A stretch of 64,000 nucleotides of DNA from Blastopirellula sediminis. GTDB lineage: Bacteria > Planctomycetota > Planctomycetia > Pirellulales > Pirellulaceae. Under the pieces are notes generated by a model, which saw nothing but the letters and a program-made list of their open reading frames with translations, made no database searches and was not told the origin of the DNA. The stretch is taken from assembly GCF_020966755.1 (NCBI RefSeq), contig NZ_JAJKFT010000010.1, positions 1,328,720 to 1,392,719 on the forward strand. Reading direction: 5' to 3'. Positions within the stretch are counted from its first letter, which is position 1; each line of letters starts with the position of its first letter. Of the stretch, positions 5,318 through 44,421 are shown piece by piece. The position numbers and the translations under genes were made by a program.

Positions 5318-5696
5318 CTTCGATCCGACCGGCCATTCGCCGCATGGAAGCATTCTCATTTTATGCAATGGCGCCGCTTCCTATTCGCTTTACGGCGTGG
5401 CAGCCACACTCTGTACGTGGAGCTTCTTTGCGAATCTGGTGGGGTTTGCGGCAGCAACTGAGGCTCGAAACAAAACTCATGAGCACCATAGTTTTTGGAA
5501 AGCAAACAGCTCACAAGAGCTGTAAATAGATGCAAAGAAAAAGCAAAAAAAAGCAAAACATTGGACGTGGTTCCGTTGTTAAGTACTAAATGGGATTAGT
5601 GGCGCGAATTATTTCTTTAAATGGATATGTTTCTATTTGACGACATGGCCACATTTTTCAATTCACCTTCATTTCTTTTCATGTGAGTTCTGCCAT
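5318..5696. other. AT-rich intergenic leader before a pseudopilin gene
   Basis: No gene is visible. The stretch is clearly richer in A+T than its surroundings (A-tracts near 5535-5560, TTTCTTTAAAT near 5612) and holds a small hairpin ACAGCT/AGCTGT at 5506-5523. It probably contains the promoter of the pseudopilin gene. An unannotated small RNA cannot be excluded. Confidence 0.35.
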
Positions 5697-6632
5697 ATGA
5701 GCGCTCGTTTTTTCTCGTCTCACCCTTCTCGACGCGGTTTTACCTTGGTCGAGCTGCTGGTGGTAATTGCGATCATCGGCGTGTTGATCGCGCTCTTGTT
5801 GCCGGCGGTACAGCAGGCTCGCGAAGCGGCTCGCCGGATGACCTGCAGCAACAATCTGAAGCAGATTGGACTCTCGCTCCACAACTACCACGACACCTAC
5901 AACCGCCTTCCCCCGGGCATCGTCACCAGCAATCAACTTTGCTGGAGCGCCATGTTGCTGCCGTTTATCGAACAAGGGAATCTTTGGGACGCACTAGGAA
6001 CGGCCGGCGCATTCAATGGGCCGTGGGAGGACATCACCGCTGTGACGACGACCGGCGTGGGCGGACGTCCGCCGCTGGCGCAAACGCCGCTGACCGCTTA
6101 CCTTTGCCCGTCCGATCCAGGGGGCGATCTGAATAAGAAATTAGGAGGAACCGGCGGGATCTACTTCGCGAAGTCGAATTACATCGGCGTCTTCTCCGCC
6201 TACTACAACGCGACCGACCCGGTTTCGACCGGCACCGGCGGCAGCGATCGCCCGGCGGTATTCACCGACGACTCGCAAACCAAGTTCCGCGACATCACCG
6301 ATGGTCTGAGCAATACGATCATCGTCGCCGAGCGTTGCTCGCAGGGTGGGCCGACCGCGTCGCTCTGGATTGGCTACCACAACGATTTCGGCGGCAGCAT
6401 CTCCGGTTCGATCTCTCAGTTCCAGGTGCGCATCCGGATGGAACGGGTCTCGAACGACACTGATTATGTGATCAACGGTTCGACCACCTACAACCCGAGC
6501 AGTCTGCATCCTGGCGGCGCTCAGTTCCTGTTTGGGGACGCCAGCGTCCAATTTGTGCCGGAGACGATTCCGCTGCGCACGCAAGCGGCCCTTGGCACGA
6601 TGGACGGTGGCGAAGTGATTCAGCCTTACTAG
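5697..6632 (+). CDS. DUF1559 pseudopilin-like protein
   Basis: The 311-residue protein starts at ATG 5697 (MSARFFSSHPSRRG), which places the prepilin peptidase site [12 protein letters not shown] at residues 12-20; an upstream in-frame ATG at 5637 would add an implausible 20-residue leader. The hydrophobic helix [19 protein letters not shown] is followed by the family sequence SNNLKQIGLSLHNYHDTY and a C-terminal LHPGGAQFLFGDASV, the H-x-G-G/DG block of DUF1559. These proteins occur in very high copy number in planctomycetes and are thought to be exported by a type II secretion-like route; the substrate or role is unknown. A lipoprotein gene follows 53 bases downstream, as at 18.2-19.7 kb. Confidence 0.93.
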   Translation: MSARFFSSHPSRRGFTLVELLVVIAIIGVLIALLLPAVQQAREAARRMTCSNNLKQIGLSLHNYHDTYNRLPPGIVTSNQLCWSAMLLPFIEQGNLWDALGTAGAFNGPWEDITAVTTTGVGGRPPLAQTPLTAYLCPSDPGGDLNKKLGGTGGIYFAKSNYIGVFSAYYNATDPVSTGTGGSDRPAVFTDDSQTKFRDITDGLSNTIIVAERCSQGGPTASLWIGYHNDFGGSISGSISQFQVRIRMERVSNDTDYVINGSTTYNPSSLHPGGAQFLFGDASVQFVPETIPLRTQAALGTMDGGEVIQPY

Positions 6633-18096: not shown

Positions 18097-18212
18097 TGCG
18101 GCAAGCTTCGACTTGGAGATAGGCGCCCGAGTCGTCACGCAGTAAAAGGCGGAAATTCTATTCGGATTATCTCGATACGATCATTTCTCTCCTTTCCTGG
18201 GGTTTGATTCTG

Positions 18213-19241
18213 ATGAGAACGTGCCTTTCCCTGCGCCGCGAGTCGCATCGCGGCGGATTTACGCTGGTAGAGCTGCTAGTCGTGATTGCGATTATCGGCG
18301 TGTTAATCGCGCTGCTGTTGCCGGCCGTGCAGCAAGCTCGCGAAGCTGCCCGGCGGATGAGTTGCAGCAACAACTTGAAGCAGCTCGGCCTGGCGACGCA
18401 CAACTACCACGACACCTATCGCTCGTTTCCCTTCGGCGCTCGCTACTACATCACCAAGGCGGGAACCAGCTGGCGATGGGCCTTGTTGCCGTTCATGGAG
18501 CAGTCGGCGGTTTACGATCTGGACAAAGCGTCCGGCTACAACCTCGATACGTACGTCGGCGGCGGTACGCAAACCAACATCAACGCTTACAGCAGCTACA
18601 CGCGGCAGATCCTCGGGCTGGTAATTGACGGTTACGTTTGTCCCTCCAGCGCGATCGATCCGCTCTACGCCTACAACGCGCAGCTGAGATCGATCGGTTC
18701 CGTGACGCAGGGTCATCACTATGTCGGCATCATGGGCGCCTATCCTGACCCCGCCGGACGGACGACGACCTACTACAAGACGCAGTACGACGCCTACGCG
18801 ACCGACAACGGCGCTTTGCTGATCAACACGACGACCGGCATGCAGGGAGTCGTCGACGGAACCTCGAACACGATTCTGATTTCGGAGCAGTCGGGCAATA
18901 ACCACGCGAACGCCGCTACGCGAAAGATGGCCAACTATCACACCGGCTGGGGCGGTTGCGCCTACAACGGTACGGTCGCCGATTGGCGCGCCGGGACCGC
19001 GGGACAGCATCGGTACGGGAACGGCTTGACCGCCGTCTTCCATACGCCGAATCCGACGTCGGTTGGCGCCGAAGCGAACGCCGAGTGGGACTTCAACACG
19101 CCGCTCACTTCGTTCCATCCCGGCGGCATCCAGGTGGTGCTCGTCGACGGTTCAGTCCGCTTCGTGCCGGACACGATTAACCTGACGACGATCCAGCAAC
19201 TAAGCGTGCGTGACGACGGTCAGGTGGTTGGCGAATACTAG
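18213..19241 (+). CDS. DUF1559 pseudopilin-like protein
   Basis: A protein of 342 residues from ATG 18213. Prepilin site [13 protein letters not shown] at residues 11-20, hydrophobic helix, [19 protein letters not shown], and C-terminal [18 protein letters not shown]. Same architecture as 5697-6632 and also followed within 60 bases by a small lipoprotein gene. It follows the haem/HEAT protein by 116 bases on the same strand. Role unknown. Confidence 0.93.
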
Positions 19242-40071: not shown

Positions 40072-40755
40072 TTAGCCATTCTTCCGCGCCGCCCAGGTCC
40101 AGTGGCGATCGCTGGTCGCAGTAACCGTGGCGGGATCAAAGCCGAGCGGCTCGACCAGCTCGCGCACTTCGTCGAGCGTCAGCGCCGCACGCAGCGAATC
40201 GCCAAACAGCCGGCGTTCATGGTCATCTACGCCGCCGTACGTTTCGACCAGATGGGCAAGCTCTTCTTCGCTATCGGGGCGAAGGAGATCGCGGATGAAG
40301 ATCATACCGCTAGGACGCGTAACGCGGATGATCTCACGGAGGGTCGGCAGCGGATCTTCGAGGTGATGAATGATGCTGTTCGAGATCACCAGGTCGAACA
40401 TCTCCGAATCGAATCCGTTATCGGCCGCGTTGGCTTGGGCGAGTTGAATTCGTTCGAGCATGCTGTCGATGTCGATGTTCGCCTTGGCGATGTTCAGCAT
40501 CGAGGTCGACATGTCGATCGCCATCACGCGCGCGGAGGGCAACTTTTGGCAGAGCGCGATCGGAATCAGCGCGGTCCCGGTCCCCACGTCGAAGACGTCG
40601 AGATAAGAACCATAGTCGGAGGAAGGATCGAGCGAGAACGCTTCGCAGAGATCTGCGACGAACTTCGCATTGACCGCCGAGTGATCCATCGCATCGTAGA
40701 CGGCCGCTTCCTGAGGGTCGTCCATCACCTCGTCTTCCAGGATGCGAATGATCAT
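40072..40755 (-). CDS. Class I SAM-dependent methyltransferase
   Basis: A protein of 227 residues from ATG 40755 (MIIRILEDEVMDD), overlapping the permease stop by four bases. SAM motif I FDVGTGTALIPIAL (about 55-68), AIDMSTSML (acidic end of strand 2), VISNSIIHHLEDPL (post-I/II) and MIFIRDLLRP. The methyl acceptor is unknown. The tight coupling to the permease suggests shared control, but not necessarily shared substrate. The open frame upstream is the shadow of the permease gene. Confidence 0.88.
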   Translation of the reverse strand: MIIRILEDEVMDDPQEAAVYDAMDHSAVNAKFVADLCEAFSLDPSSDYGSYLDVFDVGTGTALIPIALCQKLPSARVMAIDMSTSMLNIAKANIDIDSMLERIQLAQANAADNGFDSEMFDLVISNSIIHHLEDPLPTLREIIRVTRPSGMIFIRDLLRPDSEEELAHLVETYGGVDDHERRLFGDSLRAALTLDEVRELVEPLGFDPATVTATSDRHWTWAARKNG

Positions 40756-42512
40756 GTCGTCTCCTCCCAATCTTCCAAGCTTTCGGTCGGCGGGCCCTCT
40801 TCGAGTCGGCAATAGTGGAACAACACCAACACGCCGGCCGCGCACAAATAGGCGGCCAACATGTAGATCGGCGTTTGTCCCGCTGCGGTATCGGGCATCG
40901 GATGCCAGACCCATTGGCCCAAAGCTCCATCGTACCAGAACGGCAGGAAGACCGGGCTGCCGGGAAGCGGCGAATGAATCACGCCAAAGAGGGAGAAGAG
41001 CCCGCACAGTGCGAAGAAGCCGGCGGCGGTCAGCAACTTGCGATCGATGATCATCGCCAGCGCCGACGCCCACAACAAACTGGTCAGGATGAATCCGCCC
41101 GAGAGCATGCGGAGCGTTTGCAGTTTCACCCCCAAAGGACCAAAGAAGTTCCCCTGCGAGATCGACTGGATCGATTCGGCGGACGCTTTCAACTTGTCGA
41201 GCCCTTCGGTGTCGGCCGGCAGCGCATCGATCGCCGCAGTGAGCTGCGCGGCTTGACCCATGTATTGTCCTTGCGCGTCATCGACAAAGACGAGCACCAA
41301 TGCCGCCAGCGCTGGCACGCAGGCAAGCGACACGGCGGCGTAATGCTTCTTCTTGGTCGCCAGGAAACTTTGCGCGGTGATCTCCAAGCCGATGAAGACG
41401 AGGATCGGAAAGACGGTCGACTTCGGCACGAGCCAATAGAGATAGCCGAAGTAACCAATGGTTCCCGCGCCGCCGACGAACAGCGCCGTCGCCAGCACAT
41501 ACGCGGAACGGCCTCCCATCGCTTTGTACGCGGGGTGGCCGATGTATGGAGTCGTTTGAATCACGCCGCCGCACAGGCCCGCGACCAGCGTGGCGATCGC
41601 TTCGACCAGAATGATCCGATCGGTATCGTATTCGTCGCCGACGGCCGCAGCGCTTTCGACGCAGTCGATCCCGCCGATCACCGTACCCAGCGCGAATGGA
41701 ATCACGACCGGCAGATAGTTGAGCGCGTCTCCCATTTGCGCGACCCAGCCAAAACGGAAGACCGCCAACCAATCGGTCGGCAGCAGACCTTCGTGCGGAT
41801 TGAACGGCATCGGTTCTTTGTCGGCGCCGAGGATGCCAAACGCGTCCATCACGTAGTAGATGAACCCAGCGATCAACAGTGCGGCGAGAGCGCCGGGGAT
41901 TTGTTTCGGCAAACCGATTCGCGCGACGAGCGTGGTCAAGATGATCGCCAGCGCGGTCATCCCGACGACCGGATAATGAAGCGACTCAACGAACGGGAGG
42001 AAGCTGATCAGTACTAGCGCCACCGCGGCTAGCGATCCTAGCAAGCCGGCGCGGGGGAGGAACTTTCGGATCCAACCTGATCCGAAAGCGCACGCAACTT
42101 TGAAGAGACCGCTAATGACGATCGAGCAAATCCCAATATGCCACGTATAAACAGCAGCCTCTGTTTCATTCAGTTGTAAAATGTGCTGAGCGTGGTTAAA
42201 GGCTGGTCCCAGCACAAAGAAAACCATGCCGAACGTGCTGGGCGTGTCGAGCCCTAAAGGCATAGCAGTAACGTCGTTGCGCCCGGTTCTGCGGGCCAGA
42301 GCCAGGGCCATAAAGAAGAAGGCCAGGTCGCCGACAAACACTCCAATCGCGGTTCCCGGAGCCATATGCCGGATCGCGAAGTTTGTAGGAAAGTTAAAAA
42401 CCGTTGCTAGCAGACCAATCGTTAAAAGCAGATCGGCGATGTTATCTAACATCAAGCCAAAGAAGGCGTTAACGTCGCCAGCAGCGGCCCAGTGAGGAGT
42501 CTTTTTCGTCAT
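40752..42512 (-). CDS. NCS2-like (xanthine/uracil superfamily) permease
   Basis: A protein of 586 residues, about 12-14 membrane helices. NAFFGLMLDNIADLLLTIGLL at the start, RRTGRNDVTAMPLGLDTPSTFG (about 80-100), and GTVIGGIDCVESAAAVGDEYDTDRI (about 275-300), the family equivalent of the QxxGxE substrate region. AzgA/NCS2/SulP fold; the substrate may be a purine, pyrimidine or an anion. A loop around 420-460 is soluble and Ala-rich. A sigma-54-type promoter starts 12 bases upstream on the opposite strand. Confidence 0.82.
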   Translation of the reverse strand: MTKKTPHWAAAGDVNAFFGLMLDNIADLLLTIGLLATVFNFPTNFAIRHMAPGTAIGVFVGDLAFFFMALALARRTGRNDVTAMPLGLDTPSTFGMVFFVLGPAFNHAQHILQLNETEAAVYTWHIGICSIVISGLFKVACAFGSGWIRKFLPRAGLLGSLAAVALVLISFLPFVESLHYPVVGMTALAIILTTLVARIGLPKQIPGALAALLIAGFIYYVMDAFGILGADKEPMPFNPHEGLLPTDWLAVFRFGWVAQMGDALNYLPVVIPFALGTVIGGIDCVESAAAVGDEYDTDRIILVEAIATLVAGLCGGVIQTTPYIGHPAYKAMGGRSAYVLATALFVGGAGTIGYFGYLYWLVPKSTVFPILVFIGLEITAQSFLATKKKHYAAVSLACVPALAALVLVFVDDAQGQYMGQAAQLTAAIDALPADTEGLDKLKASAESIQSISQGNFFGPLGVKLQTLRMLSGGFILTSLLWASALAMIIDRKLLTAAGFFALCGLFSLFGVIHSPLPGSPVFLPFWYDGALGQWVWHPMPDTAAGQTPIYMLAAYLCAAGVLVLFHYCRLEEGPPTESLEDWEETT

Positions 42513-42538: not shown

Positions 42539-42761
42539 GATTAGGTTCGATCGTGAGTTTAGGAGGCTAGTCGCACGCTGTCAAATCGGCGGATTTTGCT
42601 CCCTTCGAGCGTTTGACCGGAACATTCATGGTAGGATGGCCGGCAAACTGATCCGACGACAAGCGGGCGACGATCCAGGAGGACTTCTGTGAAGAGCAGA
42701 AGAAATCCGGGCCTTTTTGGAATGGATGTCGAACCGTCGCCCACTTGCCGCGTAAGTAATC

Positions 42762-43415
42762 ATGACAGCCACACTTGAAATGACGCAGAGCGCTTCGGAG
42801 TTTACCTACCTCGAACCGATGTCCGATGAAGATTTGATTCTCGGATATCGGGAAAGTGGGGATCGTGAGCTTTTTGAATGCCTCGTCAATCGCTACGAGC
42901 GGGAGTTGTTCAACTACCTGCGACGCTATCTGAATGACGCAGAAATGGCGGAAGACGCCTTTCAGGCCACTTTTTTACAAGTGCACCTGAAATGCGAATC
43001 GTTCGAGGAAGGACGACGATTCCGCCCCTGGCTTTACACGATCGCCACCAACCAGGCGATCGACGCCCAGCGTCGTTCTAAGCGGCATCGCATGGTCAGC
43101 TTGGATCGCACCGGCCGGGAAGACGCTGATGAGATCGGGGGTCTGGTAGACCTGCTGGTCAGCGGCGAACCGGCTCCGGCCGCCCAGATTGATGACGCAG
43201 AGCGCCAAGCGTACATGCAAGAGGCGGTCAAGCAACTGCCGGAATCGTTGCAGGAAGTCGTGATCCTGGTTTACTATCAGGGTCTGAAATACCGCGAAGC
43301 GGCCGACATCCTGGGAATTCCGGTCGGAACTGTCAAAAGCCGACTGCATTCCGCGGTGATCAAGCTGACCGAAGCTTGGAACCGCACTTACGCCAACGAC
43401 GACTACAATGCGTGA
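42762..43415 (+). CDS. ECF sigma factor
   Basis: A protein of 217 residues. Region 2 about 25-100 (LILGYRESGDRELFECLVNRY, AEDAFQATFLQVH, FRPWLYTIATNQAIDAQRR); region 4 about 150-205 (LPESLQEVVILVYYQGLKYREAADILGIPVGTVKSRLH). The middle linker (HRMVSLDRTGREDADEIGG) is longer than usual. Its last 8 bases overlap the next gene, a classic sigma/anti-sigma arrangement. Confidence 0.95.
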   Translation: MTATLEMTQSASEFTYLEPMSDEDLILGYRESGDRELFECLVNRYERELFNYLRRYLNDAEMAEDAFQATFLQVHLKCESFEEGRRFRPWLYTIATNQAIDAQRRSKRHRMVSLDRTGREDADEIGGLVDLLVSGEPAPAAQIDDAERQAYMQEAVKQLPESLQEVVILVYYQGLKYREAADILGIPVGTVKSRLHSAVIKLTEAWNRTYANDDYNA

Positions 43416-44421
43416 CAATCTCTTAGGTTATTTGCTTAACGCCCTCGATGAGGACGAAGCGCGCGACGTCGAAGTCCAGGCCGAGCGCACCCCGGAAATT
43501 CAAAACGAACTACTGCGGCTACGTTCTCACGTCACCCTACTGGAAGACTCTTGGGTCGATATCGCTCCGCCCGCCGGATTAGCCGCGCGGGCTTGTGCGT
43601 TTCTTGACGCACCGATCGGTCGGCAATCTTCCTCTTCGCCGGAGGCGGCTGACGCTCTGGTCGATGAGAAGCCAGTTCCGCGTCGCAGCCGCGCCTTCGC
43701 CGCGATGACCAGCGATTCGTCCCGGTTTACGATGGCTGACCTGTTGGTCGCCGCCGGCGCTTGCGTCGCCGCCGCGGTCATTTTCTTCCCCGCCTTGGCG
43801 AGCAGCCGGATGTTGGCGTCGCGCCTGCAGTGCGAAAACAATCTGCACCAGGTCGGGATGGCGCTGCACGACTTCGCCTACCAAAACAAACAGCAAGCCT
43901 ATCCCGCGATCGATGCGGATGGCCCGGCCAACTTCGCCGGCTCGTTCGGTCTGCCGCTGGTTGAACAGGGCTATTTGAAGTCGCCAGAGTATCTGAGCTG
44001 TGCGGCGAACCGAGGCAAAGCAGATAAATTCCGTTTGCCGACCCTGAAAGAAGTTGCCCAGGCAGCGCCCGACCAAATCCCTGGTTTGCATGCGAACTTT
44101 GACTTGGTCTACAACTACAACCTCGGCACGCAGAAGAATGGCCGCGTCATTCCGCCGAAGATGCAGGGACGCACTGACTACCCGGTCGTTTCCGATATCG
44201 TTCGCGTCGGCGACAAAGGAAACCTGAACGCCAATGGCCACGGGGTAACCGGGGTCAATGTTCTCTTCGATGACGGGCGCGTTGATTTCATTCGCTTGGA
44301 TGAGATTCCGGAGCTGGTCCGTCAGTACTATTTCAACGACCTGGGGAAGGTCGAAGCAGGCGTTAACGAGAACGATCCGGTTCTCGGCAGCGGTTTCACC
44401 AAGGCGCTTTCTGGGCGTTAA
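43408..44421 (+). CDS. Anti-sigma-like protein with an embedded pseudopilin/DUF1559 domain
   Basis: A protein of 337 residues. Residues 1-60 (LLGYLLNALDEDEARDVEVQAE) are the cytosolic helical domain typical of planctomycete anti-sigma proteins; no zinc HxxxCxxC is seen. A Ser/Pro/Arg linker runs to about 105. Then DSSRFTMADLLVAAGACVAAAVIFF (about 105-130) copies the pseudopilin helix [15 protein letters not shown], but the Gly before Phe is Arg, so prepilin peptidase should not cut. It continues as DUF1559: LQCENNLHQVGMALHDFAY (about 145) and NVLFDDGRVDFIRL near the C-terminus. So it spans the membrane with a pseudopilin sensor outside. It overlaps the ECF gene by 8 bases. Confidence 0.85.
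   Translation: MRDNLLGYLLNALDEDEARDVEVQAERTPEIQNELLRLRSHVTLLEDSWVDIAPPAGLAARACAFLDAPIGRQSSSSPEAADALVDEKPVPRRSRAFAAMTSDSSRFTMADLLVAAGACVAAAVIFFPALASSRMLASRLQCENNLHQVGMALHDFAYQNKQQAYPAIDADGPANFAGSFGLPLVEQGYLKSPEYLSCAANRGKADKFRLPTLKEVAQAAPDQIPGLHANFDLVYNYNLGTQKNGRVIPPKMQGRTDYPVVSDIVRVGDKGNLNANGHGVTGVNVLFDDGRVDFIRLDEIPELVRQYYFNDLGKVEAGVNENDPVLGSGFTKALSGR

Follow-up and report, generated by a model that had tools for sequence, protein, structure and literature searches.

A conserved sigma/anti-sigma gene pair of Planctomycetes with a pilin-like DUF1559 module as its putative sensor

In a 64,000-nucleotide stretch of Blastopirellula sediminis DNA (the window), we found an ECF sigma factor gene overlapping the gene of a second protein, in which a predicted anti-sigma head is fused to an internal pilin-like module, an architecture that we regard as near certain. 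Computation supports this architecture together with the predicted folds, the conservation, the gene pairing and the conservation of a promoter. We propose, with a probability of about 0.4, that the two proteins form a membrane-tethered sigma/anti-sigma switch in which an unprocessed pilin-like sensor reports the state of pilins or of the pseudopilus. The parts of the pair are:

42762..43415, plus strand: ECF sigma factor, 217 aa (Pfam/NCBIfam)
43408..44421, plus strand: anti-sigma/DUF1559 pilin-like fusion, 337 aa, its first 8 bp shared with the end of the sigma gene
43408..43608, plus strand: residues 1-67, predicted class I anti-sigma domain without zinc ligands (AF2 and VIA-align)
43609..43725, plus strand: residues 68-106, variable low-confidence linker ending in the Arg at -1 (AF2)
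43726..43884, plus strand: residues 107-159, pilin-type alpha-1 helix with F107(+1), D111(+5), P128(+22) and C142(+36) (AF2, structural and profile alignment)
43885..44418, plus strand: residues 160-337, body modelled as alpha/beta, predicted to be extracytoplasmic and bearing DUF1559 features (VNVLFDDGRVDF) (AF2; type IVb pilin alignment to residue 323, Z 4.1-5.1)

The product of the first gene is clearly an ECF sigma factor, as the original prediction had it. Pfam searches matched Sigma70_r2 (4.6e-18) and r4_2 (2.6e-15), with PF04542 at 65.2 bits and PF08281 at 56.2 bits, both above cut-off; TIGR02937 scored 110 bits, and no match to region 3 appeared in the Pfam and NCBIfam searches, a layout of regions 2 and 4 without region 3. 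ORF coordinates confirm the predicted overlap with the fusion gene, bases 43408-43415 being common to both frames. When this overlap was surveyed in other planctomycetes, the pairing proved general, but its exact geometry did not: of 80 loci scanned by HMM, 79 have a family sigma gene within 442 bp ahead of the fusion gene and in its orientation (a motif search found one in 26 of 30), and the two genes overlap by exactly 8 bp in only 18 of those 79 and by any length in 24. The 80 loci were drawn from a genome collection and include Blastopirellula marina DSM 3645 and Rhodopirellula europaea 6C.

How widely is the pair distributed? Searched with the complete fusion, the window's genome holds 128 matching places, the fusion among them; the alignments of the other 127 begin no earlier than residue 67, mostly at about 90-107, and these places look like DUF1559 proteins. 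The N-terminal query finds a single copy in the same genome, and residues 1-111 return one match each in 49 of 60 genomes, its own included. We first suspected a family limited to one order. This was overturned by a head-only profile, which at E<=1e-5 matches in 175 of the 248 genomes of the class, own genome included (a count that may take in unrelated heads, some frames being far shorter or longer), and by 19 loci from beyond the order. All 19 of these distinct loci (20 stretches, picked among the better matches in families f111, f112, f113 and f115) encode head, helix and body as a single reading frame, with a same-strand family sigma gene upstream. Weak matches in family f21 were left out of the opened loci, and several f21 genomes gave no match. 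By these sequence comparisons, the pair appears to be widely conserved and mostly single-copy in the class.

Two further observations deserve mention. A distant class of the phylum has an ECF sigma gene adjoining a zinc-type H-x3-C-x2-C anti-sigma head that is fused to a DUF1559-like module; this version was found in two of four genomes (L119, on the minus strand, and L281), and its +5 residue, read by eye, is not acidic. At L053, the sigma gene appears to be split over two frames at about 5675-6000 (197 and 108 bits), perhaps by a frameshift or an assembly error.

The N-terminus of the fusion had been predicted to be of the anti-sigma type, and structural modelling agrees. The AF2 head consists of four helices (residues 2-9, 15-27, 29-48 and 58-67), and its residues 1-54 align with RslA, RsiW and MucA. 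The five best solved matches by Z in VIA-align 2 are all anti-sigma domains, aligned on residues 1-49 to 1-69: RslA (6.9), RsiW (6.2), MucA (6.0), RskA (5.3) and ChrR (5.0), the rmsd being large (8.6-8.9) for RsiW and RskA. Sequence similarity is weak. NCBIfam anti-sigma models score well below cut-off on this region (35.6 of 100 and 29 of 225 bits), and a head profile searched by sequence against the PDB ranks RskA (E 0.028) after an unrelated fusion protein (0.0078). RskA_N is the commonest Pfam family among the relatives' heads (13 of 37 at E<=0.1; zf-HC2, 7 of 37), and the window head matches neither at that threshold. The predicted helical domain and the co-encoded ECF sigma factor, with weak sequence similarity, support the head as a class I anti-sigma domain, which would bind and inhibit the sigma factor. 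Like the heads of RskA, RslA, RsiW, MucA and ChrR, it is a predicted N-terminal helical domain encoded with an ECF sigma factor; unlike theirs, the sensor here is a pilin-like DUF1559 module, and the window head has no zinc ligands. In the linker that follows, residues 71-100 have a block pLDDT of 48-53 (AF2).

Behind the linker the protein reads R106-F107-T-M-A-D111, and this helix lines up with GFTLVELL of two pseudopilins of the window (ORFs 5637-6632 and 18204-19241), both of which match N_methyl and near-full-length DUF1559. That line-up, already part of the original prediction, is strengthened by a profile-profile match to ordinary DUF1559 proteins (below), and structural alignment gives the same register as the sequences, with pilin residue 1 on F107 and Glu5 on D111. 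It had also been noted that Gly(-1) is replaced by Arg and that the helix is internal; indeed, Arg106 occupies -1, and 105 residues lie ahead of that position (82 to 159 in the family). The window protein therefore has none of three type IV pilin hallmarks, namely Gly or Ala at -1, Glu at +5 and a short N-terminal leader.

Across 103 distinct relatives (110 proteins minus duplicates, collected with queries that took in the helix, namely residues 1-111 and, for confirmation, 171 residues, a possible bias), several features of the helix emerged: (i) the -1 residue is Arg in 40, Gly in 21 and Ala in 9, making 30 with Gly or Ala and 73 with another residue; (ii) +1 is Trp in 63, Phe in 21 and Tyr in 6; (iii) +5 is Asp in 100, Glu in 2 and Asn in 1, and thus acidic in 102; and (iv) Pro stands at +22 in all 103. 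The canonical combination of Gly or Ala at -1 with Glu5 occurs in none of the 103 relatives, and N_methyl matches none of 77 family members at E<=0.01. The 19 loci chosen with the head alone, and so free of the helix bias, have Asp (14), Asn (2) or Glu (1) at +5, two being off register by the ungapped anchor; of these 19, 15 have Pro22 and 2 have Gly(-1). Ordinary DUF1559 proteins of the window's genome read [G/A]FTLVE in 25 of 25 cases, with F1 and E5 throughout and Gly (21) or Ala (4) at -1. This control sample comprised the best matches plus places hand-picked down the list; two of its 27 loci fell out, a duplicate of a gene already counted and a locus reading AFTLVE that the anchor missed, which left 25. 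Only -1, +1 and +5 are informative in this sample, since the anchor fixes Pro22.

In the aligned sequences, the cleavage site has mostly decayed and the pilin-type acid has been retained, with a shift from Glu to Asp. The near-invariant Asp at +5 and the invariant Pro22 argue for a constrained pilin-type helix rather than just a decayed anchor, and an acid kept while the processing residue is mostly lost is the pattern expected if the helix preserves an interaction. The preserved partner may be the pseudopilins, and the part of the helix in the membrane is probably its first half. The module had been called uncleavable. Arg at -1 and the general loss of Gly speak for this, but the relatives with Gly (21) or Ala (9) hold it to a likelihood: the window protein probably escapes prepilin-peptidase cleavage. 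Four open frames of the window's genome have Peptidase_A24 (prepilin peptidase) domains above cut-off, a set that fits the very large pseudopilin repertoire of this genome.

The assignment of the C-terminus to DUF1559 stands for the beginning of the body, most of which has diverged. PF07596 matches the fusion at 27.6 bits (gathering score 23.3) over residues 137-190 only, DUF1559 is matched by 50 of the 77 aligned family members at E<=0.01, and the H-X9-DG model gives 11.9 bits, below its cut-off of 19. When the family profile was aligned with that of 19 ordinary DUF1559 proteins, the match reached 98.5% (E = 2e-15) over residues 101-171; without the helix it was 94% (E = 1.4e-7), covering only the first 41 body columns after C142, past which the body could not be aligned to ordinary DUF1559 by profile. 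This match and the recurrence of the layout across the class argue that the likeness of helix and DUF1559 region is not due to chance. Because the profile alignment ends there, the pilin reading of the later body rests on the AF2 model.

The model, built from 77 aligned sequences, has a mean pLDDT of 87.6 and shows the four head helices between residues 2 and 67, then a disordered linker, a single helix of 51 residues (109-159) and an alpha/beta body; a control model of an ordinary DUF1559 protein, from 3 sequences only, reached a pLDDT of 33. Foldseek returned no match to the fusion model at E<=0.001. VIA-align 2, run on the Foldseek candidates, gave two groups above Z 3, and in it the stretch that starts at residue 107 or later and runs to 323 aligns with type IVb pilins, namely the ETEC type IVb pilus (138 residues, Z 5.1), TcpA (4.7) and CofA (4.4), with FimA at 3.1; pilin scores of about 4-5 are modest, and a middling Z can reflect a common arrangement. 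A pilin fold for the body is thus suggested by the model rather than proven. With the type IVb pilins (ETEC type IVb pilus 9iuf, CofA, TcpA), the fusion would share the long helix and the alpha/beta body, pilin residue 1 falling on F107; unlike them, it has a 105-residue head, predicted to be cytoplasmic, and no processing site, and identity in the structural alignments is 12-15%. Closer to home, DUF1559/SBP_bac_10 pseudopilins are described from Planctomycetes (PMC8567305, PMC10632474). They have in common with the fusion a homologous helix plus about 40 residues, P22, C36 and a C-terminal DG motif, whereas the module of the fusion is internal, lacks Gly(-1) and Glu5, and has a body mostly unalignable by sequence.

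Upstream of the pair, we distinguished three further features:

42731..42754, plus strand: predicted autoregulatory ECF promoter GAACC-N15-CGTA, from pattern match and conservation; the ATG at 42762 lies 7 bp on
42627..42637, plus strand: conserved CATGGTAGGAT block (four genus genomes and L013), possibly an extended -10 of a housekeeping-type promoter
40752..42512, minus strand: divergent predicted membrane protein, 586 aa; its ORF cluster occurs in 44 of 81 loci (the 80 and the window), some stretches ending ahead of that gene

The predicted ECF promoter is the sole match to its pattern in the window, although one or more matches also turn up in 73 of 100 shuffled windows, and it is identical in four genomes of the genus. 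Of 96 distinct loci, 73 carry the pattern GAAC[CT]-N13-16-CGTA ahead of the sigma gene (72 with a spacing of 15 or 16), compared with 36 of 1960 shuffled control regions; a first count of 74 of 98 had held two loci twice, and two loci were left out because their upstream DNA was too short. Outside the order, 12 of 18 loci carry it (one locus left out), against 8 of 900 in the control. The first in-frame start lies 6 or 7 bp past the box in 47 of the 73 distinct loci. A conserved ECF promoter so close to the start codon predicts autoregulation and a leaderless sigma mRNA, and the sigma factor probably regulates its own operon. Loci named Rhodopirellula or Rubripirellula mostly depart from this pattern: 8 of 10 have no box, and one has an off-spacing match. 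Within this group, L093, L100 and L118 show sigma/anti-sigma gaps of 123-442 bp. The 586-aa membrane protein matches nothing in Pfam or NCBIfam at E<=0.01, and with no second promoter match in the window it is not supported as a target. The recurrent neighbours identified were this membrane protein of no known family and a methyltransferase; no pilus or secretion gene recurs beside the pair among the loci examined.

What might the switch look like? Residues 1-67 would tether the ECF sigma factor to the inner membrane, and the flexible linker would tie the head to the pilin alpha-1 helix, with the N-in/C-out topology that we infer for the fusion. This helix retains the pilin acid (Asp +5) and Pro22 and, without the prepilin-peptidase Gly, would leave the head joined. 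Helix and extracytoplasmic body may sit among the membrane DUF1559 pseudopilins and signal how abundant they are or their state of assembly, as PilS does for PilA. Any change would then loosen the anti-sigma or trigger its proteolysis, and the freed sigma factor would transcribe its own operon from GAAC[CT]-N15/16-CGTA as leaderless mRNA. The sensing of pilins or pseudopilus and the release step are put forward as a hypothesis.

Two known systems resemble parts of this scheme. The sensing of PilA by PilS-PilR was reportedly described by Kilmury and Burrows in 2016. PilS is stated to respond to PilA levels (PMC6058289) and, as a membrane sensor of pilin level, would be a works-like analogue; as portrayed in that source, PilS-PilR differs in being a two-component kinase system with no anti-sigma, and PilS itself is not a pilin. 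Truncated PilA is reported to activate AlgU via AlgW, MucA being lost in the process (PMC3684759), a case in which a signal from a pilin removes an anti-sigma and results in sigma activity; in that account, pilin and anti-sigma are separate proteins and the signal acts through AlgW, unlike here. A more far-reaching version of the pilin-sensing scheme, which we consider rather unlikely, is that the anti-sigma evolved from a DUF1559 pseudopilin and is permanently unprocessed, its Asp(+5) pairing with the free N-terminal amine of mature pseudopilins, so that the class-wide DUF1559 repertoire would be counted and fed back through one dedicated autoregulated ECF sigma factor.

Membrane anti-sigmas are usually destroyed by regulated proteolysis on an envelope signal. 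It is quite conceivable that the fusion is an ordinary envelope-stress anti-sigma of this kind, the body binding an extracytoplasmic ligand or damage signal that sets off regulated intramembrane proteolysis, and the helix being an inherited anchor with no link to pili. MucA, which is reported to be less stable when truncated PilA is made (PMC3684759), offers a comparison for such destruction. Such a protein would follow the usual logic of membrane anti-sigmas as far as PMC8999054 sets it out; it would also fit the neighbourhood, which holds nothing recurrent that is pilus-related, and the strong divergence of the body from ordinary DUF1559 proteins past its first 41 columns. However, if the helix were a mere anchor, one would not expect the +5 acid to persist in 102 of 103 relatives, and Pro22 in all 103, alongside a drifting cleavage residue, and it is this conservation at +5 that inclines us, though only slightly, towards a sensor of the pilin inventory over a generic envelope sensor.

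Readings in which the sigma factor is set free by the pilin machinery itself, or is not inhibited at all, are far less probable. Prepilin peptidase might cut before +1 on the cytoplasmic side and so release head and sigma factor from the membrane, a reaction for which the genome has the Peptidase_A24 domains and some relatives the Gly (21 of 103) or Ala (9 of 103) at -1. We judge it very improbable, since -1 is Arg here and in 40 of 103 relatives, none has a canonical [G/A]...E5 site, no N_methyl match was found in 77 members at E<=0.01, and 105 residues lie ahead of the site. The export of FlgM offers a secretion-coupled precedent, by analogy with which the fusion, with its pilin-like predicted fold, might be drawn into the pseudopilus and the inhibitor thereby taken off the sigma factor; yet an uncleaved N-terminal head is expected to block filament packing, and -1 is mostly neither Gly nor Ala, which makes this still harder to credit than cleavage. 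Least probable of all is a head that acts positively, bringing the sigma factor to the membrane or activating it there. Inhibition by the head is a prediction, which leaves some room for such a role, but anti-sigma domains from five systems match the head, and the two genes stand in the order usual for a sigma factor and its anti-sigma.

Under our preferred reading, a pilin-like sensor of the pilin inventory, the pilin fold would join the known sensor domains of anti-sigma factors. The fusion would then be an anti-sigma of a known class with a type of sensor that is apparently undescribed: we found no description of a DUF1559-anti-sigma fusion in the open literature searched, and the main ECF reclassification, reportedly that of Casas-Pastor et al., lies outside that search and may already list this ECF group. 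A planctomycete genome encodes from dozens to more than a hundred DUF1559 proteins, which are annotated without a known function; Planctopirus limnophila is reported to have 68 paralogues, two of them essential (PMC10632474). A conserved pair that uses a DUF1559 module as its sensor would provide a genetic handle on these proteins, through the sigma regulon, the condition that induces it and the part played by the pilin acid, and the predicted promoter supplies a specific pattern for mapping the regulon.

Motif counts by themselves do not delimit such a regulon, and we rejected one drawn from them: GAACYNTYN12-13CGTA has 23 sites in the window's genome against 19 for the reversed pattern, and the looser GAACYN15-16CGTA is not enriched (193 vs 220 in the window's genome, 156 vs 263 in genome G003). 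Conservation was more selective, as 5 of the 23 sites are near-matched (at most 5 mismatches) in all three other genomes of the genus, compared with 0 of 19 control sites. These five are the sigma promoter itself, one site before a pseudopilin gene, one before an ABC ATPase gene and two inside longer ORFs. The ABC site (L176, G000:C10:1085662-1085686, minus strand) lies about 160 bp before the start of the ABC-transporter ATPase, for which an earlier start is also open in the window's genome.

The pseudopilin site (L172, G000:C10:1662691-1662715, minus strand) stands some 380 bp ahead of the gene of a true pseudopilin and overlaps the first codons of a divergent ORF in its longest reading. Its box is better conserved than the adjoining DNA; other blocks of the leader are conserved too, so the promoter box is not alone in this. 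In relatives from outside the genus, the site was found in none of 21 scanned (3 of 28 loci were dropped because the helix motif missed the start, and L199 and L200 were scanned before a neighbouring second pilin gene). Against Rfam, the leader matched no family above its gathering score, two chance-level miRNA matches falling far below. A regulatory link of the sigma factor to a true pseudopilin is therefore a lead, resting on a promoter match at the level of the genus. The long leader of this pseudopilin gene also holds a conserved inverted repeat, seen by eye.
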